NCBI RefSeq assembly: GCF_032854445.1
Contig: NC_088305.1
Location: forward strand, 19,329,717 to 19,393,716
Origin: Liolophura sinensis
Taxonomy: Eukaryota; Mollusca; Polyplacophora; Chitonida; Chitonidae
Reading direction: 5' to 3'
Length of the DNA: 64,000 bases
The notes under the pieces are model-generated. The model was not told the origin of the DNA and did no database searches. It saw only the letters and a list, made by a program, of their open reading frames with translations. This document shows, one piece after another, positions 14,904 to 44,470 of the stretch; position 1 is the first letter of the stretch, and the number at the start of each line of letters is the position of its first letter. The translations under genes were made by a program, and so were the position numbers.

Positions 14904-17900
14904 TCAATGTTGATAGAAGTTCTGGTTTCTGGTTTCAAAGTCACAGTATCCTGTGGGTGGGGCTGCATAAGATGGAGGCAGAGTCATATAGGCAGCCTGG
15001 GCGGGGTATTGTTGGCCGTACGGTGGAGGTGGGCTGTTGTTGGCACCTGAGTAAAAACTGCTGCTTCTTAGGTCAGAGTCGGAATAAGCTGGTGGCTGAA
15101 ACAGAGAATGGTAGAAACTAGAAGATATGCGGCGTGTTTACAAAGTATAGATACCCCTGCCGACTCTTTTCTTTTCGTCACTTGTGGGGAATATCGAGAA
15201 CTACACGGTAACACCCACACAGACATGCTTTATCCGATTAAGCCCCACCCCCAACCCCCCTTCAAACACCACTCCTCAGACCTGTAACACTCTGTAAAAC
15301 TTTTAAAAAGTGTTCCACAAAATTTTATCAGATCATATCTTGCCCACAACAATGTACCACATACCCACACCCATGTGTAAATAACAAACACCCCTTACAC
15401 ACACACAGTACAAAACTCCAGCCACAGAATACTTTCAGACCAGTGTTTAGGAGGCCTCTTTGCCCTTGTGATTGGCACGCAGGCAGAGCCAGCGGCAAAC
15501 CCATCAGTAGGTTGCTGGCAGACTATTTGGCAGGGGACTACAGTAACGTGATTTTATATGATGTGACTAACCTGCTCTAGACCTGCCAATGGCTCTGTGT
15601 TTGACAGGGGACTGTGTGGTAGCCTTATGATGATGGGATGTTATGTGATGTGACTTACCTTCTCTAGATCTGCCAATGGCTCTGTGTTTGACAGGGGACT
15701 GTATGGTAGCGTGATGATGATGGGATATTATGTGATGTGACTGACCTTCTCTAGATCTGCCAATGGCTCTGTGTTTGACAGGAGACTGTATGGTAGCGTG
15801 ATGATGATGGGATGTTATGTGATGTGACTAACCTGCTCTAGACCTGCCAAGGGCTCTGTGTTTGACAGGGGACTGTGTGGTAGCGTGATAATGATGGGAT
15901 GTTATGTGATGTGACTAACCTTCTCTAGATCTGCCGAGGGCTCTGTGTTTGACAGGGGACTGTATGGTAGCGTGATGATGATGGGATGTTATGTGATGTG
16001 ACTTACCTTCTCTAGATCTGCCGAGTGCTCTGTGTCTGACAGGGGACTGTGTGGTAGCATGATGATGATGGGATGTTATGTGATGTGACTTACCTTTTCT
16101 AGACCTGCCAAGGGCTCTGTGTTTGACAGGGGACTGTGTGGTAGCCTTATGATGATGGGATGTTATGTGATGTGACTTACCTTCTCTAGATCTGCTGATG
16201 GCTCTGTGTTTGACAGGGGACTGTATGGTAGCCTTATGATGGGATGTTATGTGATGTGACTAACCTTCTCTAGATCTGCCAATGGCTCTGTGTTTGACAG
16301 GGGACTGTGTGGTAGCCTTATGATGATGGGATGTTATGTGATGTGACTCACCTTCTCTAGATCTGCCAATGGCTCTGTGTTTGACAGGGGACTGTGTGGT
16401 AGCGTGATGATGATGGGATGTTATGTGATGTCACTTACCTTCTCGACCTGCTGATGGCTCTGTGTTTGACAGGGGACTGTGTGGTAGCGTGATGATGATG
16501 AGATGTTATGTGATGTGACTTACCTTCTCTAGATCTGCCAATGGCTCTGTGTTTGACAGGGGACTGTATGGTAACGTGATGATGATGGGATGTTATGTGA
16601 TGTCACTTACCTTCTCGACCTGCTGATGGCTGTGTTTGACAGGGGACTGTGTGGTAGCGTGATGATGATGAGATGTTATGTGATGTGACTAACCTTCTCT
16701 AGATCTGCCGATGGCTCTGTGTTTGACAGGGGACTGAATGGTAACATTATGATAATGGAATGCTATGTGATGTGACTAACGTTCTCTAGATCTGCTGATG
16801 GCTCTGTGATTGATAGGGGACTGTATGGTAGCGTGATGATGATGGGATGTTATGTGATGTGACTAACCTTCTCTAGATCTGCCAATGGCTCTGTGTTTGA
16901 CAGGGGACTGTGTGGTAGCGTGATGATGATGGGATGTTATGTGATGTGACTAACCTCTAGATCTGCCGATGGCTCTGTGTTTGACAGGGGACTGTGTGGT
17001 AGCCTTATGATGATGGGATGTTATGTGATGTGACTAACCTTCTCTAGATCTGCCAAGGGCTCTGTGTTTGACAGGAGACTGTATGGTAGCGTGATGATGA
17101 TGGGATGCTATGTGATGTGACTAACCTTCTCTAGACCTCCTAATGGCTCTGTGTTTGACAGGAGACTGTATGGTAGCGTGATGATGATGGAATGTTATGT
17201 GATGTGACTAACCTTCTCTAGATCTGCCGAGGGCTCTGTGTTTGACAGGGGACTGTGTGGTAGCCTTATGATGATGGGATGTTCTGTGATGTGACTTACC
17301 TTCTCTAGACTTGCCGATGGCTCTGTGTTTGACAGGAGACTGTATGGTAGCGTTATGATGATGGAATGTTATGTGATGTGACTAACCTTCTCTAGATCTG
17401 CTGATGGTTCTGTAATTGACAGGTGACTGTAAGGTAGCGTTTTGATGATGGGATGTTATGTGATGTGACAGACCTTCTCTAGACTTGCTGATGGCTCTGT
17501 GTTTGACAGGAGACTGTATGGTAGCGTGATGATGATGGAATGTTATGTGATGTGACTCACCTTCTCTAGATCTGCTGATGGTTCTGTAATTGACAGGTGA
17601 CTGTAAAGTAGCGTTTTGATGATGGGATGTTATGTGATGTGACTGACCTTCTCGAGATCTACCGATAGCTCTGTGTTTGACAGGGGACTGTATGGTAGCG
17701 TGATGATGATGGGATGTTATGTGATGTGACTAACCTTCTCTAGATCTGCCGAGGGCTCTGTGTTTGACAGGGGACTGTGTGGTAGCCTTATGATGATGGG
17801 ATGTTATGTGATGTGACTAACCTTCTCTAGATCTGCCGAGGGCTCTGTGTTTGACAGGGGACTGTGTGGTAGCCTTATGATTTTTTTTTTTTTTTTTTTT

Positions 17901-20900
17901 GATTGGTGTTTTACGCCGTACTCAAGAATATTTCACTTATACGACGGCGGCCAGCATTATGGTGGGTGGAAACCGGGCAGAGCCCGGCGGAAGGTAGCCT
18001 TATGATGATGGAATGTTATGTGATGTGACTAACCTTCTCTAGATCTGCCGAGGGCTCTGTGTTTGACAGGGGGCTGTACGGTAGAGTGATAATAACGGGA
18101 TGTTGCCGATATCTGTATCTCCAGAATCCAGCACATGACGAGAGAAGAAAGATGAAGAAGACTAAACCAAACCTGTTCAAGAAGAAGAGTACTACACATC
18201 AAGAAAATGACTAATAATATTATATTCATTAGAAGTAGTACAAGAAATATGGTCATTATGAACACAAAATAGTATATTTTGCTCATGATGAAATTACTCA
18301 TTCTGGGAGTTCCATCAAAGTTAGAAAACTGTTTTAAGTCTTCCATGTTTTTTTTTTTTCATTTCTTTTGGATGGTAGGGTGATATCCTACTGGGAAAAC
18401 ATACACGTAAGTTGCAGCTCCAAAGTGTTTACCTATTTACTTATTGTTGTTTATCGCTAAACTCAATGACTTTTTGCCTTACTCGATGTCGCCAACTTGC
18501 ATGGGTGGAGAAAAGCAGGGGGCCTGGCATAAACCACCAACCTCTGGTAAGTTACTGACAAACTTTTTCACTTATGACTTTCCACAGACATGCCCATGAT
18601 ATTAGTGGAAGACAATAATCATGAGAACATCAGGTTTGACCCCGCACCTTGGGTATCCCAGCAAATAAAAAACAACCTACCAGAAGTACCATAAACCCAA
18701 GACTCTGTATGACGCACAACAAACGTTGATACCACAGCAATATTCATCCTCACTGCATCTACGTAAGCAAACAGATAAAGTAACTTTCAACGATACAACA
18801 TTACAATGTAGTTTGCAAGAAATACATACACTAAATAATAAAAATCTGTCCAGCAGACAATATGTGTTTCTATAAAAATCCCAACTTTGACTGTCAGTGG
18901 AATGCCATATTTAAAACAAGGTATGACTTTCTTTGTAGTTGCAGTCACTGTCAGTTTGTGGGTATTTTATTTGTTACACGTACATGGTTACTTAGTGGCA
19001 GGATACAGAAATAACCCTCATCATATAGACGCCAAGCCCAATATGAAGGATACTGACATCATATATTTCTGTATCCTGCCACTGAGTAACAACATAACAA
19101 ATTTATCCTACAAAGACCCATCGATTCAGGGCAAAAGACCGATGTATAGGTGAATATCTTCCATGATCAATGTTTTCACAATTGAACAAATGGAGATAAC
19201 CAAATCAGCACAAACATTTCACGTGGGCTGCAGTGTACTGGAATATACACGGCCCTCATGTGACAGATGCCATCCAATGAAAAGCAGAGTATTTTTGTCT
19301 GACGTGGGATAACTGCCTCTACAAGAGAGCGGTCACACTTTAACAGCAGGGGCATAATTCCCCTAATGCTGTTTTGGTCAGGCTTTGGTGACATTAACCA
19401 GTCAACAGATATTTGTGAAGCAATATTTCTCCGTCTAACCTTTGCTGAAGACCACTTGTTCAACCATACTAAAAAATATTTTGTGAAACGTAAGTAACCT
19501 TCAACAAGACCATTTAAATAGTCCTTCGAGCACTGCGGAATGCTTACTACCTCCTTGAAAAAAAAAGTAGATGCTGGAAAATCTGAACAATTTCCTGCCC
19601 AAGACTGGGATTGAACCAACATCTTGCATCTCCTCTCAAAGCAATGACCAGAATCTTGATTGATTGGTAACAACCTGCTTCTTCCTGGTCATACTCATGA
19701 ACAATCTCTATCTTTAATAAGTGGAGGTTAGCGTGCTAGCATAGCACCATGAGGAGCCTCTCTCCAATGTTATCGCTCTAAGTTCAAGTCCAGCTCATGA
19801 TGCCTTCCCCTCCAGTTGTATGTGGGAGAATCTGCCAACAACCAGTGGACAGTCGGGGGTTTCTCTTTGGCTCTGCCTGGTTTCCCCCCACCATAATGCT
19901 GGACATTGTTGTATAAGTGAAATATTCTTGAGTACATGTACGACGAAACAAAATCAAATAAATAAATAAATCTACCTTTAATACACACTGGAATTTCATA
20001 TTTGATTAGATTATTTGTGATTTCAGAAACATTATGGAGATGAACAGACATAACAAACTACTCACCTATTGTTGTCACAATAATAAGCATTGACCTAGAA
20101 GACAAAGAAAACATATTTGAGATTATCACTGAACAAAAAGACCAAACTACCCAGCTTAAAGCAAACATGGAAAGGTAATGTAAAACTAAGAATATGCTTT
20201 TAAGAAAATTGAAAAAAGACATGCCAAAATAAAAGGTAATAATAAAATGTTGCACTTTTGAGGCAAGTTATATATTTCTTAGTAACCCCTCTATTTCATG
20301 CATATTTTCCATATCAATGGTCTGGAACATTCGGAAATGACGTCACCAATAAAGATACTGGGACCGCAGAACCAGCTTAGCCTGCACCCACCTCCAAGAG
20401 TTGTTTTGACGGCTATCACCGTTTATTCTATGTCACCACAGCAGGCTACTTAATTTCGGGACTGACCACTGGGGCATGTGGAAAGTTCTAGTTTAAAGCC
20501 ATCTTTACACCTCTACAAGAAAGCTAAGAAGTTTCTATGTGTTAGATCATATCCTAAACTCCATATTCAAACATGAAAACCAAGCCATTTCATGTATCAT
20601 TCAAAGCAGTCTTGAACATGATTTTTGTGCAGTACAACTGTACCTAAAACACATGAGAATTTTCAAAGGACATTTTTAGTCTCACATCGTGTGAAGATAC
20701 ATGTACGTTACTTCAACTCATATCAACACGCTGTTGCCAAAAAAAAAAAATGCGGGATGGTGAACAAGAGTTTGTGCTACATGTAGCTGTCTAAAAAAAC
20801 ACATGTCCATATGTACCAGGCATGTTTATTTTCTTCCAGGCAATCAATCAAGGTTTTAACAATCTGGGTTTGCACATGGCCAAAAATTTCTACCCCTGGA

Positions 20901-21996
20901 CATAGCCCCCACTTCCAACTATTCTGTATGGGAGAACATTGAGAAACAAACCTACACCTAATCACAGTGCATGACTGTGAAAACCAAGGAAAACTGCTCA
21001 ATTCCAAATGTATAAATGAGGTAAAAACTAGAATCTGTTTGTGTTACAAGTAGTAGAGTGTGCACAATTTGAAGTCTGTATTACATGTAAAGTTTGTGTT
21101 ACATGTACTGTGTGCACCACATTTGATGTCTGAACTAGAGTTGTCAATTATTTCAATTCTAGCAGAGTGTACGCCAGTCACTTTGATCATTACCTAAGAA
21201 TCTATTTGCATTCAATCAACAGACAGATTTAAATGGGATGTACTCTCTAACACTGTCTAACTTTGGTTTCAAGAAATTGACATACGGCTGAACAAGATTG
21301 TTCCAATTTAACTTCAGAGCACTCTTGAACTAACTGAAATTTTTAAATGTTATCATGTTTTCCAACATTGAAAAACCAATTACCGGTAGTCTAATTTACA
21401 CCCAGACATGTCGGCTTCCTCTCCGGCTGCATGTAGGAACGTCTGCGAGCAACCTTGGGAAGGTCATGAGTTTCCCCCAGGCTCTCCATCATACAAGTGA
21501 AATATTCTTGAGCACGGCGTAAAAACACGGTAAAATATCAAGTAAATAAATAGTCAAAACCTGGGATTTTAAGTTGCATTTTCACCTTCTTTAACCTAAG
21601 ACTTACTGCTCAAGTAAAGGGTGCTGAACTGAACATTTTGTTTGTGAAGTGTGATGAACCTATAGTGAAAACTCAAAGAATTTATCTTGAACTTGCAAAA
21701 CTTTACCAAAATTCGAAACACCAATTATGAACTAATGACCAAAAATAATAGGCCTACTACTTGAAGTACTACAATCTAAAGGGTCGCATTTCCGCTTCTT
21801 TTTTTTTTCCTTTTTGTTTTACAGCGTCCCAATTCTGTTGTTTCATAGCCTAAATAAAGAACTAATGAAGCCTGGCTTAACGTAAAGAGCTTACAGTGTA
21901 CTAGGACGTTACGTATACACGAAGACAGCCTAAAAAACCAACCTGCTGAATCTTCAAGGATAATCCGAAAAACGTCAACAACAAAGTCCCTGCCAT
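14904..21996 (-). CDS. Gene A: VOPP1/WBP1-family membrane adaptor, 5 coding exons
   Basis: Coding exons are 21996-21943, 20094-20066, 18758-18681, 18172-18034 and 15095-14904, totalling 492 nt and 163 aa. All borders are AG/GT and the frame is continuous (intron phases 0, 2, 2, 0). Residues 1-18 form a signal peptide ([14 protein letters not shown]). Residues 24-42 are the Cys-rich lumenal segment ending [13 protein letters not shown] at 50-54 begins a membrane helix to about 71, followed by basic RYRYR. The cytosolic tail has PPAY (101-104), PPPPY (122-126) and LPPSY (139-143). Human VOPP1 has the same order: CCGSRCC, LWYFW, membrane helix, PPxY. Family members act on endosomal/lysosomal membranes and bind WW-domain proteins such as WWOX or NEDD4-type ligases; this role is inferred. 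The start has a strong context (aaaATGG). The exon 4 donor is the weak GTTAGT, and its 3' end is amplified in the next intron. Confidence 0.85.
15590..18080 (-). repeat. 87-bp minisatellite built from exon 4 3' end plus splice donor, about 27 copies
   Basis: On the minus strand each unit reads aacatcccatcatcatcacg, ctaccacacagtcccctgtc, aaacacagagccattggcag, atctagagaag, then gttagtcacatcacat. The first 71 bases correspond to the end of gene A exon 4 (from QHPVIIT to ADLEK), and the last 16 are the donor and intron start. The unit keeps the exon's reading frame (29 codons) but has an in-frame TAA six codons after the donor. The donor position varies among GTTAGT, GTAAGT, GTGAGT and GTCAGT. 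The copy nearest the transmembrane sequence (18034-18172) is the true exon end; the rest fill intron 4. Confidence 0.93.
17881..17992 (-). mobile_element. 5'-truncated SINE group I inserted in the 87-bp array
   Basis: A pure T run is followed by gattggtgttttacgccgta, then acgacggcggccagcattat and gggcagagcccggcgg, which is the group I 3' end in minus orientation. The flanks are an exact 13-bp target duplication, ggtagccttatga, at 17868-17880 and 17993-18005. The intact tail and duplication point to a recent insertion by a LINE-type machinery. It separates the first array unit from the true exon. Confidence 0.9.
18425..18660 (-). repeat. SINE group IV body, minus orientation
   Basis: The stretch contains aaaccaccaacctctggtaag, then ttactgacaaactttttcac, gacatgcccatgatattagt and ggaagacaataatcatgag, matching the body near 360-500. 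A B-box-like tttgaccccgcacc lies at its right end. It sits in intron 3 of gene A, just downstream of exon 3. Confidence 0.45.
18987..19090. repeat. Hairpin: 27-bp inverted repeat with 50-bp spacer
   Basis: The left arm 18987-19013 (gttacttagtggcaggatac, then agaaata) is the reverse complement of 19064-19090 (tatttctgtatcctgccact, then gagtaac) with one mismatch. It lies in intron 2 of gene A, so the pre-mRNA can fold into a long stem. It may be a MITE remnant or a small-RNA hairpin. Confidence 0.7.
19560..19680 (-). repeat. tRNA-like SINE head
   Basis: On the minus strand, gagaggagatgcaagatgtt then ggttcaatcccagtcttggg looks like a tRNA T-arm and B box, followed by caggaaattg as in group IV copies. 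It sits in intron 2 of gene A. It explains the start of a 165-codon minus-strand open frame here. Confidence 0.4.
19720..19972 (+). repeat. SINE group I, full length but diverged
   Basis: It reads ggttagcgtgctagcatagc, then gttcaagtccagctcatgat and caccataatgctggacattg, ending aaataaataaataaat. It lies antisense in intron 2 of gene A. Confidence 0.8.
20255..20555 (+). repeat. Dispersed repeat family V
   Basis: The order tttgaggca...tatatttcttagtaa, then cagcttagcctgcaccc, gacggctatcacc, gctacttaatttcgggac and tgaccactg recurs at 61943-62225, with a partial copy at 62390-62530. No tRNA-like head is visible. The copy is in intron 1 of gene A. Ends are approximate. Confidence 0.55.
20556..21402. 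other. Intron 1 of gene A, nothing recognised
   Basis: A 76-codon minus-strand open frame at 20777-21007 shows no family motif and no splice borders consistent with gene A phases. I see no repeat here. Confidence 0.45.
21403..21551 (+). repeat. SINE group I, 3' half, diverged
   Basis: It shows tcggcttcctctccggctgc, gagcaaccttgggaaggtca and atacaagtgaaatattcttg followed by aaataaata. The head is missing and the middle is shortened. Confidence 0.75.
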
Positions 21997-31700: not shown

Positions 31701-34596
31701 TGGGGTCCATCAGACGTGCTGTGGAACAAAGTGTTGTGACAACATCGTAGCGTTTTACAGACTCTGGTACTTTTGGTGAGAGAATATTTTTGAATCACAT
31801 GAATCGATTAAATAAAGTAAAACTTTTGAGGAGACAAACCATGATTACATTCAGTGCATTGTGAATTAGTAATTTAAAAACTATTTAATTATATAAATAA
31901 ATGTTGATTATTTGTTAGTACGAGTAATCATTCATAGGTTGGTTTCTATGATGTCCTGGAGATTCTTGCATTTCAGTCGTACAGGCTTAGTCCCTGCCTT
32001 GAACATGGAATTTGTGAATTTCTCCCACTGTGACTGTTCAGGCATTGGTTGTAATGAGCAGTTCAGAATGCTCCTGTGGCAAAAGACCGCACTTTTTTAC
32101 ACTGGTCAATCTGGGTTCTTCCACCCATATCACATACCACCATGGAAAAGGGAAGCATTCTTTAATTAATATGGTACGTGCTAAATACATGTATCAAGCA
32201 AATACCTGAAAACCGCCATAAATTCAAATACAGGTATACTTCATGATTTAGCATATTACAGGAATGTGTTTTATGATTTCTGTGAAATTTATTTGTTCCA
32301 ATACCTGAAAAATACATTTATGTTTTCTTACCTTATGAATTGTGCTAACATGTTGCATCTAAATTTATACTTTGCTGGTCAAATTTGTTGAGGATTTAGG
32401 GTATATAAATAAATAAATAAATAAATAATGGAGTTGTCCTCTGTAAGAAGAGCTAACCCCACAAGCTTATTGGTCCAAGTAGCCAGCACAAAAAGCTACA
32501 TGCTGAAGTTTTTTTTGCCAAGTTTCTTTCCATCTTCATCAATGCTTCATCAGTTCTCTTCAGACAAGGGGCCATAAGCACAGGGGATGGGGGGCTGGGG
32601 GCTGCCTCCGTGGCTCAGTTGGTTAACGCGCTAGCGCAGCATTATGACCCAGGAGTCTTTCACCAATGCGGTCACTGTGAGTTCAAGTCCAGCTCATGCT
32701 GGCTTCCACTCTGGCCATATGTGGGAAGATCTGTCAGCAACCTGCGGATGGTCGTGGGTTTCCCCCGGGCTGTGCCCAGTTTCCACCCACCATAATGCTG
32801 GCCGCCATCATATAAGTGAAATATTCTTGAATACGGCGGTGTTTAACACCAATCAAATCAATAAATAAACAAACATAAGCACGGGTCACATTGATATAAA
32901 GTCATTGTTCAGCACTGCGTCGGTTTGTTGACAGGATATTTGTGCTGATGTTGTTCGTGGCGTGTTCAGGTGGAGGCTTCTGGCTGCGAAGACGAAGGAT
33001 GGGAGATGATTTAAGGGCCTCTCTCACCTCAACGTCAGACGATGGGTTTGTCAGAAGTAAGCGCTGAATTGTGTCATGACATCACACTGATGTGCTAGAC
33101 TTTTCAGCAGTGACTTATACAACTTTATAATTTGCTCGTACTTTCGGTTGGTAGAAGTTTTGACATCGTAACTTTTCACATGTGCTTTCTATCTTTTAAG
33201 ATAGGCCATTCATTTAACATTATTGAAAGACGTTGATGGAGAATTTGCACTTACCTGGAACACAGGATCAACTTAGCACTCTTTCCCCCCACAGAGTTGA
33301 TTTTATAGATTTTATAATATTTTGAACACATCTTAAACTGCATACATATATTTAAAAAATAGAAACCAAACCTTTAAGAAAGGTGTCATTAGATTGAGAA
33401 ATGTTACTAAGTACACCAAAGGATTGGTTTATGTGTTGTGACACACAAGAAACTTTTCATCCATAAAGTGTCTGCCACAGCGGATGACTGTGGTCTTCAC
33501 AGTGTAGTCTTGAGTATGGCATAAAACAACATTGAAATATTATAATAAATAAATAAATAAAATAATCCATAAAACTATTGGCCCAACTTGTAAATACCTT
33601 TGAACAGTGACCATTTTTAGCTGTGACAAACAGCTGCTTTAAAGTTACCCAGTATGTCTGGCTGCAGGCAGTCAAATCCTGTCTTGTGACAAGCAGCTGT
33701 GTTAAAGTTACCAGGTATGTCTAGCTCCAGGCAGTCAAATCCTGTCTTGTGACAAACAGCTGTGTTAAAGTTACCTGGTATGTCTGGCACCAGGCAGTCA
33801 GATCCTGTCTTGTGACAAGCAGCTAGGTTATAGTTACCTGGCATGTCTGGCTGCAGGCAGTCAAATCCTGTCTTGTGACAGACAGCTGTTTTAAAGCTAC
33901 CTGGTATGCCTGGCTGCAGGCAGTCAAATCCTGTCTTGTGACAAGGGCCATACAGTGTACACCTGATGAAGGGCATGAGAGCAGGAGGACACGAAATCCT
34001 TTATGGGGCATGTCTCTGCTATTGTTACTTTTTTCAAAAGTCAGAAAAGTATTTCAAACTGCAGCTTTTATTATAGATATTTTGACAAAAGAGCCATAAT
34101 CGTTTTAGAAAATAGCTCAGCTAATTGCCTGTCAGTCAATGTCAGACACATGCCTTTGCTAGGTATATTTTTAAAATGATATTTTGTGAAAGGTAATCAT
34201 TTGGTCAATTCTAAAACATTGGCAAATATTTGATTGGATTTTCGTGATGGGCTGACAGGCAGTTCTGACTTATTTTTATTATTGGTTGTAATTTAAGTTA
34301 ACATCTGTTGTGTTTCAGACCTCCGAGAATATAACCGTCCAAGAATCGTAAATGTACAGCGAGATCAGTTTTCTCCTGTTCACCACCAGGAGGCCAATCA
34401 ACTTCCTGTTCAGCCACCAGCATATTCCGATGTGGCGGAATCAAAACCACCGAGCTATGAAAGCCTTTTTCGAGATCAAGGACAGCGGGGAGATAACCCT
34501 AGTTTCCAAGAAGAAGAAAGACACTCAGAGCACAATGGAGAATCCAATCATGCCCTTGACAAAGCACAAGGACAAATGGTTGTTGTTGTTTCATAA
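22800..34596 (+). CDS. Gene B: VOPP1/WBP1-family membrane adaptor, 5 coding exons
   Basis: Coding exons are 22800-22874, 29303-29355, 31698-31775, 32935-33056 and 34319-34596, totalling 606 nt and 201 aa. Every junction is AG/GT with a continuous frame (intron phases 0, 2, 2, 1). The start has a good context (aacATGG); M3 is an alternative. Residues 14-24 are the hydrophobic core of a signal peptide (SAFLLFVFLLR). The lumenal domain has C31, C44 and the CCGTKCC block (50-56). LWYFW (65-69) opens the membrane helix to about 86, followed by RRRR (87-90). The tail has PPAY (142-145) and PPSY (153-156), then an acidic, polar C terminus. This is the VOPP1/WBP1/WBP1L plan, whose members recruit WW-domain proteins to endosomal/lysosomal membranes. 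Intron 1 is 6.4 kb and filled with SINEs and a minisatellite. Which vertebrate member it corresponds to cannot be decided by eye. Confidence 0.87.
23380..23680 (-). repeat. SINE group III, minus orientation
   Basis: On the minus strand a head with gagcatccgcctcaaagtca and acccgggatcaaactcaggt is followed by ttaaaaaatggtacttgttg. Next come a central block ggtatcagtataatgagact and an end with cttcagtggtggcagcactt. The copy at 53.5 kb has the same order. It lies in intron 1 of gene B. Confidence 0.6.
24005..24145 (+). repeat. SINE group I, 5' half (left arm of inverted pair)
   Basis: It reads ggcctctgtggctgaggggg, then gtggtcgctgtgagttcaag and gggaaggtctgtcagcaacc. It ends before the 3' part, where a GGGGAT-repeat linker (about 24160-24190) begins. 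Confidence 0.8.
24195..24357 (-). repeat. SINE group I, 5' half (right arm of inverted pair)
   Basis: The segment is the reverse complement of group I from the middle (tgttgctggcagaccttccc) back to the head (agaggcttctgggtcaatac). Together with the left arm it makes an inverted pair around a ggggatggggatggggat linker, so the transcript of gene B intron 1 can form a long hairpin. Confidence 0.8.
25083..25335 (+). repeat. SINE group I, nearly full length
   Basis: It begins ccatgccgaggtggtaagc, continues gtgagctcaagtccagctca and ggatggtcgtgggttttccc, and ends gtacggcgtaaaacaccaat with cagataaataaac. It lies in intron 1 of gene B. Confidence 0.8.
25383..25506 (+). repeat. SINE group I, 3' part
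   Basis: Only the end is present: tttcctcccaccataatgct, tataagtgaaatattcttga and an aaataaataaataaaa tail. It directly follows the previous copy after about 50 bp. Confidence 0.8.
25840..26460. repeat. 15/16-bp minisatellite, about 39 copies
   Basis: Units of 15 bp (catttgtccactgac) and 16 bp (ccatttgtccactgag or ccccatttgtccactg) are mixed. From about 26150 to 26290 they alternate as a 32-bp dimer. Minus-strand frames read WTNG/VDKW-type repeats in several registers and are not genes. The array lies in intron 1 of gene B. Confidence 0.92.
26461..27213. other. Intron 1 of gene B, nothing firm
   Basis: A short patch (26600-26750) contains repeated tgtacgataa/gtacgac words between two copies of gggccc...agttt(c)ata-like text, which may be a small inverted element. 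No exon was found. Confidence 0.35.
27214..27370 (+). repeat. SINE group I, strongly degenerate
   Basis: The words gtctcacccatgcgatcgaa, gtgagttcagtgtcatctcg and tttcagcaaccttcagat, followed by aaatatttttgagtttggcc, are spaced as in group I. They contain a small internal duplication (catatgtcagaaggc twice). Confidence 0.55.
27390..28215. mobile_element. Possible non-coding transposon remnant
   Basis: The stretch has the feel of a dispersed non-autonomous element: ggtctacttgcatatcaaat, tttcaaaacaatcagttcag, then aataataataatccgaacta and aaacaataggtgtcccgcag near the right end. I cannot define terminal repeats or a family and found no second copy in the window, so the call rests on style only. 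Confidence 0.25.
28745..28985 (+). repeat. tRNA-like SINE related to groups II/III
   Basis: A head with ctgcagtagtgtaatggcta and gatcttgggttcagtacc is followed by acttcagtgaggcagcacta, close to the cagtgaagcagcac word of group II. The end, gcaacattaaactctgagtc, also resembles the group II 3' end. It lies in intron 1 of gene B. Confidence 0.4.
29085..29255 (-). repeat. Dispersed repeat family VII
   Basis: Its reverse complement (gaatttatgcatacaattat, aagcttcataaaa, then ccatagttc, caatattggttgcagaggcgg) matches 57925-58105 in order and spacing. No tRNA head or coding sequence is visible. It ends about 50 bp before exon 2 of gene B. Confidence 0.6.
29422..29682 (+). mobile_element. SINE group I, full length with target duplication
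   Basis: This is the cleanest full-length copy. It starts ggggcctccgtggctcagtc, has a B-box-like gtgagttcaagaccagc and ends gcgtaaaacaccaatcagaa plus an A run. It is flanked by an 11-bp duplication, aaatgcttgta, at 29411-29421 and 29683-29693. The A-box match tggctcagtcgg supports a tRNA origin and RNA polymerase III transcription. It sits in sense orientation in intron 2 of gene B. Confidence 0.92.
29830..29940 (+). repeat. Fragment of SINE group IV body
   Basis: The words ggctatatgtgggatgtctc, atcagtaactttccaaagcc and ttgcagtttggttttctgc resemble the group IV body, but the match is weak. Confidence 0.3.
30836..30988 (+). repeat. SINE group I, 3' half
   Basis: It begins in the middle (gtacgtgggaaggtcttgca) and runs to gaatacggcgtaaaacacca with an aataaaaaaataaat tail. 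It lies in intron 2 of gene B. Confidence 0.85.
31310..31555. repeat. 35-bp minisatellite, about 6.5 copies
   Basis: The unit is aaaactaggctttctcatgt followed by tcacaactgaatgtt. Copies are nearly identical, so the array is young. It ends about 140 bp before exon 3 of gene B. Confidence 0.92.
32585..32872 (+). mobile_element. SINE group I, full length
   Basis: It reads gcctccgtggctcagttggt through cggatggtcgtgggtttccc to aacaccaatcaaatcaataa. The word cataagcac occurs just before it (near 32573) and again at its end (near 32873) and is a likely target duplication. It ends about 60 bp before exon 4 of gene B. Confidence 0.88.
33600..33950. repeat. 63-bp minisatellite, about 5.5 copies
   Basis: The unit holds tgtgacaaacagctg, ttaaagttacctggtatgtc and tggctgcaggcagtcaaatc plus ctgtct. 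The 63-bp length keeps one minus-strand frame open (CHKTGFDCLQPDIPGNF-type peptide), which is not a gene. It lies in intron 4 of gene B. Confidence 0.9.
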
Positions 34597-42310: not shown

Positions 42311-43074
42311 AAGAATTAGTCATGTTAAACATTGAAAAATCAAAATGTTTAGTTTAATAATAAGGTGAAAAATAACTCAAGCAGTATAACAGTGTGAGGT
42401 GGCTCTACTAAAGAACATTGAATGTATATCATGTTATGCTCAGTTTACCTATCATCATGCAGGCAGCAAATTCACTGATGTGGATATTACATGTGTTTCA
42501 TTGGTTTTTGAAGTGATAGTCTCAGAAATAAAGTATGCCTCGAGCAGAAATTAATTACAAGCTGTGTTCGTATGTGATTTTTACAGTTATCATGGAGAAA
42601 GTTGCATGGCTATTGTTTGTTGCACTTGTGTGATGTATAAAATGTCATATTCGCCATTCCAGTACTTACAAATTCAGTCAAGTCTATTAGAATATACCTT
42701 TCCTCAGAATCATGAAGCTGTCTTAGACTTAACTTGAATCCTTGATTTAAATACACATTCATATACCAGCCATCAACCAAAATCGACATTCCAGATTAAT
42801 AGCATCAAAGCTAATTCCCAAAACAAACATTTAACACAAACTACCAAAGAATTAAGAAAGTATATAAAGTATGAAATTACGACAGAATCATGCAAAGAAA
42901 AGCGGTCTATAGTTTTCAGTTTATGTGGAAAGACACGTGGAATGTTCTAGGTGACCGAGTGAAATGAGTATGCAGAAGAGAAGCTTCATCTCTGTGTGGC
43001 ATGCTTTAGTTTCTGTGTTAGGAATGCTCCAGATATTGTGTCCTTAGATACAGGCTGCCCCTCACACTGACACT
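42311..43074. other. Intergenic, nothing recognised
   Basis: AT-rich unique sequence between two minisatellites, with no exon-like frame, RNA gene or repeat seen. Confidence 0.45.
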
Positions 43075-44470
43075 CACTGCATTGTCCCTCATCCTGGCAC
43101 TCACTGGACTCTCCCTCATCCTGGCACTCACTGGACTCTCCCTCATCCTGGCACTCACTGGACTCTCCCTCATCCTGGCACTCACTGGACTGCCCCTCAT
43201 CCTGACCCTCACTAGACTGTCCCTCATCCTGACACTCACTGGACTGTCCCTCATCCTGGCACTCACTGGACTATCCCTCATCCTGACACTCACTAGACTG
43301 TCTCTCATCCTGACACTCACTGGACTGTGTCTCATTGTGACACTCACTAGACTGTCTCTCATCCTGACACTCACTGGACTGCCCCTCATCCTGACAATCA
43401 CTGGACTGTCCCTCATCCTGACACTCACTGGACTCTCCCTCATCCTGACACCCACTGGACTCTCCCTCATCTTGACACTCACTGGATTCTCCCTCATCCA
43501 GACACTCACTGAGCTGTTCCGTATCATGACACTTTCTGGACAGTCCCTCATCCTGACACTCACTGGACTCTCCCTCATCCTGACACTCACTGGACTCTCC
43601 CTCATCCTGACACTCACTGGACTGTCTCTCATCCTGACACTCACTGGACTGCCCCTCATCCTGACAATCACTGGACTGTCCCTCATCCTGACACTCACTG
43701 GACTCTCCCTCATCCTGACACTCACTGGACTCTCCCTCATCTTGACACTCACTGGATTCTCCCTCATCCAGACACTCACTGAGCTGTTCCGGATCATGAC
43801 ACTTTCTGGACTGTCCCTCATCCTGACACTCACTGGACGGACCCTCATCCTGATGCTCACTGGACAGTCCCTCATCCTGGCACTCACTGGACTGTCCCTC
43901 ATCGTGACATTGGACTGTCCCTCATCCTGACACTCACTGGACAGTCCCTCACCTTGACACTCACTGGACTCTCCCTCATCCTGACACTCACTGGACTCTC
44001 CCTCATCCTGACCCTCACTCTGCTGTTCCGAATCCTGATGCTTTCTGGACAGTCCCCCATCTTGACACTCACTGGACTGTCCCTCATCGTGACATTGGAC
44101 TGTCCCTCATCCTGACACTCACTGGACTGTCCCTCATCCTGACACTCACTGGACTGTCCCTCATCCTGACACTCACTCTGCTGTTCCATATCCTGACACT
44201 CACTGGGCTGTTCCCTATCCTGACACTCACTGGACAGTCCCTCATCTTGACACTCACCGGACTGTCCCTCATCCTGACACTTTCTGGACTGTCCCCCATC
44301 CTGACACTCACTGCACTGCCCCTCATCCTGACACTCACTGGACTGTCCCTCATCTTGACACTCACTGGACAGTCCTTCATCTTGACACTCACTGGACTGT
44401 CCTTCATCTTGACACTCACTGGACTGTCCTTCATCTTGACACTCACTGGACTGTCCCTCATCCTGCCTTT
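43075..44470. repeat. 27-bp minisatellite, about 51 copies
   Basis: The unit is ctcatcctgacactcactgg followed by actgtcc (27 bp, 9 codons). It is open for about 280-290 codons on both strands, with peptide units MRDSPVSVR on minus and LTLTGLSLI on plus. A block of about 10 units repeats at a 270-bp offset (about 43375-43535 and 43645-43810, marked by acaatcactggac and gagctgttccg). A third minus frame (QDEGQSSEC units) continues to 44546. It has no signal peptide or splice context that makes it a gene. Confidence 0.93.

Follow-up and report, generated by a model that had tools for sequence, protein, structure and literature searches.

A minisatellite of donor-bearing units at the exon 4/intron 4 boundary of a VOPP1-like gene in the chiton Liolophura sinensis

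We analysed a window of 64,000 nucleotides of DNA from the chiton Liolophura sinensis (contig NC_088305.1), in which a minisatellite built from the end of an exon and its splice donor lies within intron 4 of a VOPP1-like gene. The genome searched comprises 609,464,459 bp in 632 contigs; the assembly was first published as Liolophura japonica (PMC11068029) and the name was later corrected to L. sinensis (PMC12441733). The host gene lies on the minus strand and has five coding exons, given here in window coordinates, with the exon limits taken from translation of the five-exon coding sequence and the intron 4/exon 5 boundary from the acceptor sequence:

21943..21996, minus strand: exon 1, coding part from the ATG
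20066..20094, minus strand: exon 2
18681..18758, minus strand: exon 3
18034..18172, minus strand: exon 4, 139 nt, encoding the membrane span
15095..15096, minus strand: boundary of intron 4 and exon 5, the sole intron 4 site where NYAG is preceded by 14 bases of which 11 or more are pyrimidines
14904..15095, minus strand: exon 5, coding part including the stop codon; the three PPxY motifs of the protein are all encoded here

The five-exon coding sequence, in which the exon 4 donor at 18034 is joined to the acceptor at 15095, translates into the NCBI protein P0001 without any difference, and exons 3, 4 and 5 show 100% identity to the NCBI entry 'WW domain binding protein VOPP1-like [Liolophura sinensis]' of 163 aa, confirming the placement of exon 4 (18172-18034) and of its acceptor (15095) in the original prediction, which had been made from the letters of the window. 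A Cys-rich ectodomain, one membrane span and PPxY motifs are seen in the translation, and the protein shares 43% identity with an abalone VOPP1-like protein; the Pfam WBP-1 match is weak (E 0.058, below the cut-off). As judged from these sequence features the gene product is a VOPP1-like PPxY (WW-binding) adaptor, so that the WW-domain adaptor originally proposed is recovered as a WW-binding protein. Within the exon 4 tail, YSPL aligns with the abalone protein, whereas the last residues of the tail are not conserved between these two sequences. A genome search with the protein gave 15 matches, every one at this locus, and no paralogue was matched away from it at E 0.001.

Intron 4 contains a minisatellite with an 87-bp unit in which the last 71 bases of exon 4 (AACATCCC...GAGAAG) are followed by 16 bases of intron 4 (GTTAGTCACATCACAT). 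The elements of this region, with the basis of each assignment in brackets, are:

15550..17881, minus strand: minisatellite of 27 units of 83-87 bp with a GT donor in each (Tandem Repeats Finder and unit alignment)
18034..18104, minus strand: 71 exonic bases matching the exonic part of the repeat unit (unit alignment, array comparison and shuffles)
18028..18033, minus strand: intronic bases of the authentic donor AAG/GTTAGT (U1 duplex -6.7 kcal/mol)
18016..18018, minus strand: in-frame TAA that would be read on skipping of the first donor, beginning at intron base 16, after VSHIT, upstream of every decoy donor
17881..17992, minus strand: 112-nt body of a short interspersed nuclear element (SINE), A-tail included, lying between the exon tail (u00) and the first array unit (u01) (exact limits and genome copies)
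17993..18005, minus strand: target-site duplication TCATAAGGCTACC, 13 bp, exon side (sequence)
17868..17880, minus strand: target-site duplication TCATAAGGCTACC, 13 bp, array side (sequence)

Tandem Repeats Finder places the array at 15550-17881 with a period of 87, 26.9 copies and 90% matches. We aligned 28 units, i.e. the exon tail (donor GT at 18033) and 27 units of the array, whose donors range from 17821 down to 15571. This alignment bears out both the composition of the unit that had been predicted, about 71 coding bases joined to 16 intron bases, and the predicted number of about 27 copies; as predicted, a GT donor is kept in 27 of 27 array units. Across all aligned units the donor GT, with which the search pattern for the units itself ends, is present in 28/28, and G is found at -1 in 27/28 and at +5 in 28/28. 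The donors are spaced by 83-87 bases throughout, except for 212 bases across the SINE, leaving no room for a missed unit, and no two of the aligned units are identical. The best ungapped identity between exon tail and array is 91.5% over 71 bases, compared to at most 50.7% for 50 shuffled tails. The originally proposed extent of 15590..18172 needs revision: the array is present there, its proper limits being 15550-17881, with the 112-bp SINE (17992-17881) separating it from the exon tail. The coding segment, which the original prediction had as kept in each copy, is kept in part: 'HP' is found in 17 and 'ADLEK' in 14 of the 22 array units that can be read without a gap, and PYS (12) outnumbers PHS (9).

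AACATCCC is present at the unit start in the exon as well as at the unit joints and may have provided the homology for the initial duplication. A whole-genome search with the 87-bp unit gave 28 matches, all at this locus (both of two candidates scored), without dispersed copies elsewhere at E 0.001, and a loose BLAST search within the window gave 41 matches, 28 of them in the exon or the array and the 8 printed of the other 13 being 11 to 14 bases long. Apart from the SINE, the array is contiguous with the authentic donor of exon 4, making the exon tail unit 0. The 13-bp duplication of unit sequence flanking the SINE suggests that it arrived after the array units. For the first 93 bases of the SINE, the 67 matches listed include 39 identical copies elsewhere in the genome, which is a minimum, as 40 of 759 candidates were scored. 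The part of intron 4 beyond the array (window 15549-15096, minus strand) is itself rich in GT and donor-like sites, with 5 of the latter in 454 nt.

Comparison of the exon tail with its copies points to different constraints on the two. The exon tail differs from the array consensus at seven positions, six synonymous and one V/I exchange (binomial p 0.003 at a neutral synonymous expectation of 0.286), and the distinct variants within the array are 12 synonymous and 22 nonsynonymous (p 0.45), the contrast between exon and array giving a Fisher p of 0.031. The comparison used 26 of the 27 array units and skipped gapped codons, and the p values are rough, since array variants are not independent and three of the seven exon differences recur in the array (in 7, 1 and 1 units). 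The simple reading is that the exon tail is the functional copy under protein constraint and that the array drifts in a way that fits neutrality.

The donors within the array show no sign of selection maintaining them as such, their conservation not being above that of the rest of the unit. Invariance is common across the unit, with 49 of 87 columns and 26 of 86 neighbouring column pairs lacking variation, and when 79 windows are ordered from low to high diversity, that of the donor 9-mer comes 53rd, largely owing to its +3 base (T 14, A 8, C 3, G 2), the column with the most variation among the 87.

The annotated protein requires the junction from 18034 to 15095, i.e. the use of the first donor. 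If this donor is passed over, the TAA at 18018-18016 is met at least 195 nt upstream of any decoy junction, and as it precedes all decoys, the use of any of the 27 decoys as well as retention of the intron would give one truncated product lacking the PPxY motifs. A stop codon this far upstream of a splice junction makes decay of the mRNA likely. Decoy use would further lengthen exon 4 from 139 nt to 351-2601 nt. By the same pyrimidine rule (11 of 14), no acceptor-like site was found in intron 4 besides the true one at 15096. A search of the 2938-nt intron for poly(A) signals detected no AATAAA, ATTAAA or AGTAAA and one TATAAA at 15558. Other roles of the repeat were considered and rejected: a role in RNA structure, as about three units fold less well than their shuffles (z +1.69), and recursive splicing, as by eye no pyrimidine tract precedes AAG/GT. 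Rfam at gathering scores and ARAGORN gave no match.

The original prediction knew of no named repeat of this kind, a statement that does not hold, as three human genes have donor-bearing repeats at exon boundaries. The donor repeats of F7 are said to have been studied originally by Borensztajn in 2006, and the repeat unit of IFI6 is reportedly 12 bp long. In ABCA7, a 25-bp variable number of tandem repeats (VNTR) of about 12 to 427 units starts at the donor of exon 18 in intron 18; the donor one unit downstream can be used, resulting in a frameshift and a stop, and splicing is reportedly affected by VNTR length (PMC5954066). The chiton array resembles it in being a tandem array that includes the authentic donor of the exon; in contrast to the ABCA7 unit, which starts at the GT and for which length polymorphism and effects on RNA were shown, the chiton unit has 87 bp, 71 of them coding, and is known from the sequence of one assembly. 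In intron 7 of F7, according to a review, 37-bp donor repeats are present of which only the most upstream donor is normally used (PMC6627357). This mammalian case was tested by experiment, and the chiton array differs from it in its 27 decoys, the variable +3 base and the SINE after the first unit. In IFI6 (6-16), units of a minisatellite serve as splice donors (PMC4526556, citing Turri 1995). The chiton locus shares with it a minisatellite with a putative donor in its units; unlike in IFI6, where two downstream units are used and three mRNAs arise, any downstream chiton unit would lead to a premature stop, and none is annotated.

Decoy exons, which carry both an acceptor and a donor, are a further point of comparison, and the chiton array differs from them, as its units have a donor and no acceptor-like site. 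What the two have in common are splice-site decoys, which in intron retention are described as possibly interfering with the intron's own sites (PMC8706089). Earthworm metallothionein (PMC12783039) and sea bream myostatin-2 (PMC3045353) were rejected as relatives, the intron repeats described for them not being donor-bearing units. No report on this locus or on any molluscan case came up in our literature searches, which covered open-licence papers. We group ABCA7, F7 and IFI6 in this analysis as donor-bearing exon-boundary VNTRs; the chiton array belongs to this known kind, and new are its mostly coding unit and its mollusc host.

Our data support, as the likely explanation, a model according to which a neutral minisatellite was born at the boundary of exon 4 and intron 4 and is spliced from its first donor. 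The founding event would have been a tandem duplication at this boundary, comprising 71 exonic and 16 intronic bases, from which the minisatellite presumably grew by unequal exchange to 28 units, i.e. the exon tail and 27 intron copies, before the SINE split the first unit from the rest. The array would since have been carried as a neutral passenger. The spliceosome would take the first donor because it is first in order and defines the normal 139-nt exon, the decoys defining far longer ones, and any use of a decoy or retention of intron 4 would result in the same product, ending at a stop five codons past exon 4, lacking the PPxY motifs and encoded by a message that is likely degraded.

Several observations weigh against this model. 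The authentic donor of exon 4 is the weakest of the four donors of the gene (donors 1 to 3 having U1 duplex energies of -8.0, -12.2 and -8.8 kcal/mol), and compared to it 13 of the 27 decoys are stronger, 10 equal and 4 weaker, 10 of the stronger ones lying at -10.6 kcal/mol or below, two at -8.2 and one being stronger by only 0.1. GT, +5 G and +6 T are invariant in all 27 array units, and the NCBI protein record may itself rest partly on prediction. The weak authentic donor and the stronger decoys count against a wholly inert array, and low-level competition by the array donors is possible, judged from their predicted pairing with U1. It is conceivable, although rather unlikely, that the authentic donor, being weak, faces competition for U1 from the decoys and that splicing is slowed or diverted as a result, the length of the array thereby tuning how much functional protein is made, in the way that VNTR length acts on the isoforms of ABCA7. 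The energies fit such competition, as do the use of the downstream donor in ABCA7 and the capability of decoy splice sites to promote intron retention; the use of the first donor by the annotated protein, the precedent of F7 and the lack of any special conservation of the array donors argue against it. The original prediction had suggested U1 titration, slowed splicing and dosage tuning as possibilities, for which we find no support, given that the protein uses the first donor, the array variants fit neutrality and the donors are not specially conserved. That the array acts as a dosage dial, in which 27 partial exons with copied exonic context and variable +3 donors compete with the weakest donor of the gene, and array length and +3 composition set the VOPP1-like output of each chiton, strikes us as improbable.

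The shared truncated end of all decoy and retention products, together with the encoding of all PPxY motifs in exon 5, would also suit a switch yielding a membrane protein without PPxY tail; as such a read-through isoform is absent among the two protein hits, though its length was in range, and as its message would likely decay, we regard this as very unlikely. Similarly small is the chance that the copy number is an artefact of assembly: tandem arrays are prone to collapse or expansion and HiFi coverage is given as only 14x (PMC11068029), but the mean HiFi read of 8,347 bp reported there exceeds the 2.3-kb array and the aligned units all differ from one another. Shielding of the intron from premature polyadenylation by U1 sites of the array (telescripting) seems the hardest to credit. 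The array has a high density of donor-like sites (27 in 2,331 nt, i.e. 11.6 per kb, compared to 2.2, 2.3 and 3.9 per kb in introns 1 to 3), but the 454 nt of intron 4 beyond it are equally dense at 11.0 per kb, and intron 4 is nearly devoid of the signals that would need shielding. Preferred over all of these remains the neutral minisatellite spliced from its first donor.

Counting minisatellites with a period of 20 or more, 4 or more copies and a length of 200 bp or more, we found 10 in a 200-kb sample of 20 stretches of 10 kb from four contigs (mean unit 55.5 bp) and 10 in the window (mean unit 50.5 bp). This corresponds to 5.0 per 100 kb in the sample and 15.6 per 100 kb in the window, a density about three times as high. 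An enrichment of donor-like units among minisatellites was rejected: donor-like consensus units occur in 1/10 sample arrays against 0.58 expected and in 0/10 window arrays against 0.28 expected, at a threshold of -10 kcal/mol, of which the consensus of the exon 4 array itself (GTTAGT) falls short. No second donor-bearing boundary array was confirmed in the 200-kb sample or the window. In one sampled stretch (L028:4335-6801), a 99-bp, 25-copy minisatellite has many units with ATG/GTAAGTAAG and, by eye, a higher-order repeat of about 0.9 kb; with its strong donor-like site it was considered as a second case and rejected, no exon evidence being seen by eye. In the window, a 63-bp, 5-copy minisatellite (33622-33944, minus strand) carries GGTAACT or GGTAGCT in 5/5 units, with CAG before the GT in 3/5, and one open reading frame (ORF) stays open across it (127 aa, 33617-34000); it is possibly another boundary-type array, and no exon evidence was found. 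Nearby, a plus-strand ORF at 34297-34596 with PPAYSDV and PPSYESLF, which has no Pfam match, is perhaps an exon of another PPxY protein. In a 27-bp, 52.6-copy minisatellite (43055-44465), long frames of up to 362 aa are open on either strand, as expected from a unit of nine codons.

If arrays ignore genes, the share of donors located in a founder unit would, going by the 200-kb sample, be roughly 0.3 to 0.8%; for a gene with four donors such as this one the chance would be 1 to 3%, and many further cases would be expected in the genome. With minisatellites this frequent, loci of this kind may be numerous and open to a survey. Comparing an exon with its own array also offers a neutral reference, internal to the locus, against which selection on a short stretch of coding sequence can be gauged. 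Should splicing proceed cleanly from the first donor despite 27 near-identical and often stronger decoys, the locus would offer a natural test, in a mollusc, of the first-site rule that has been put forward for mammals; otherwise, the length of the array would be a natural dial of the output of the gene.

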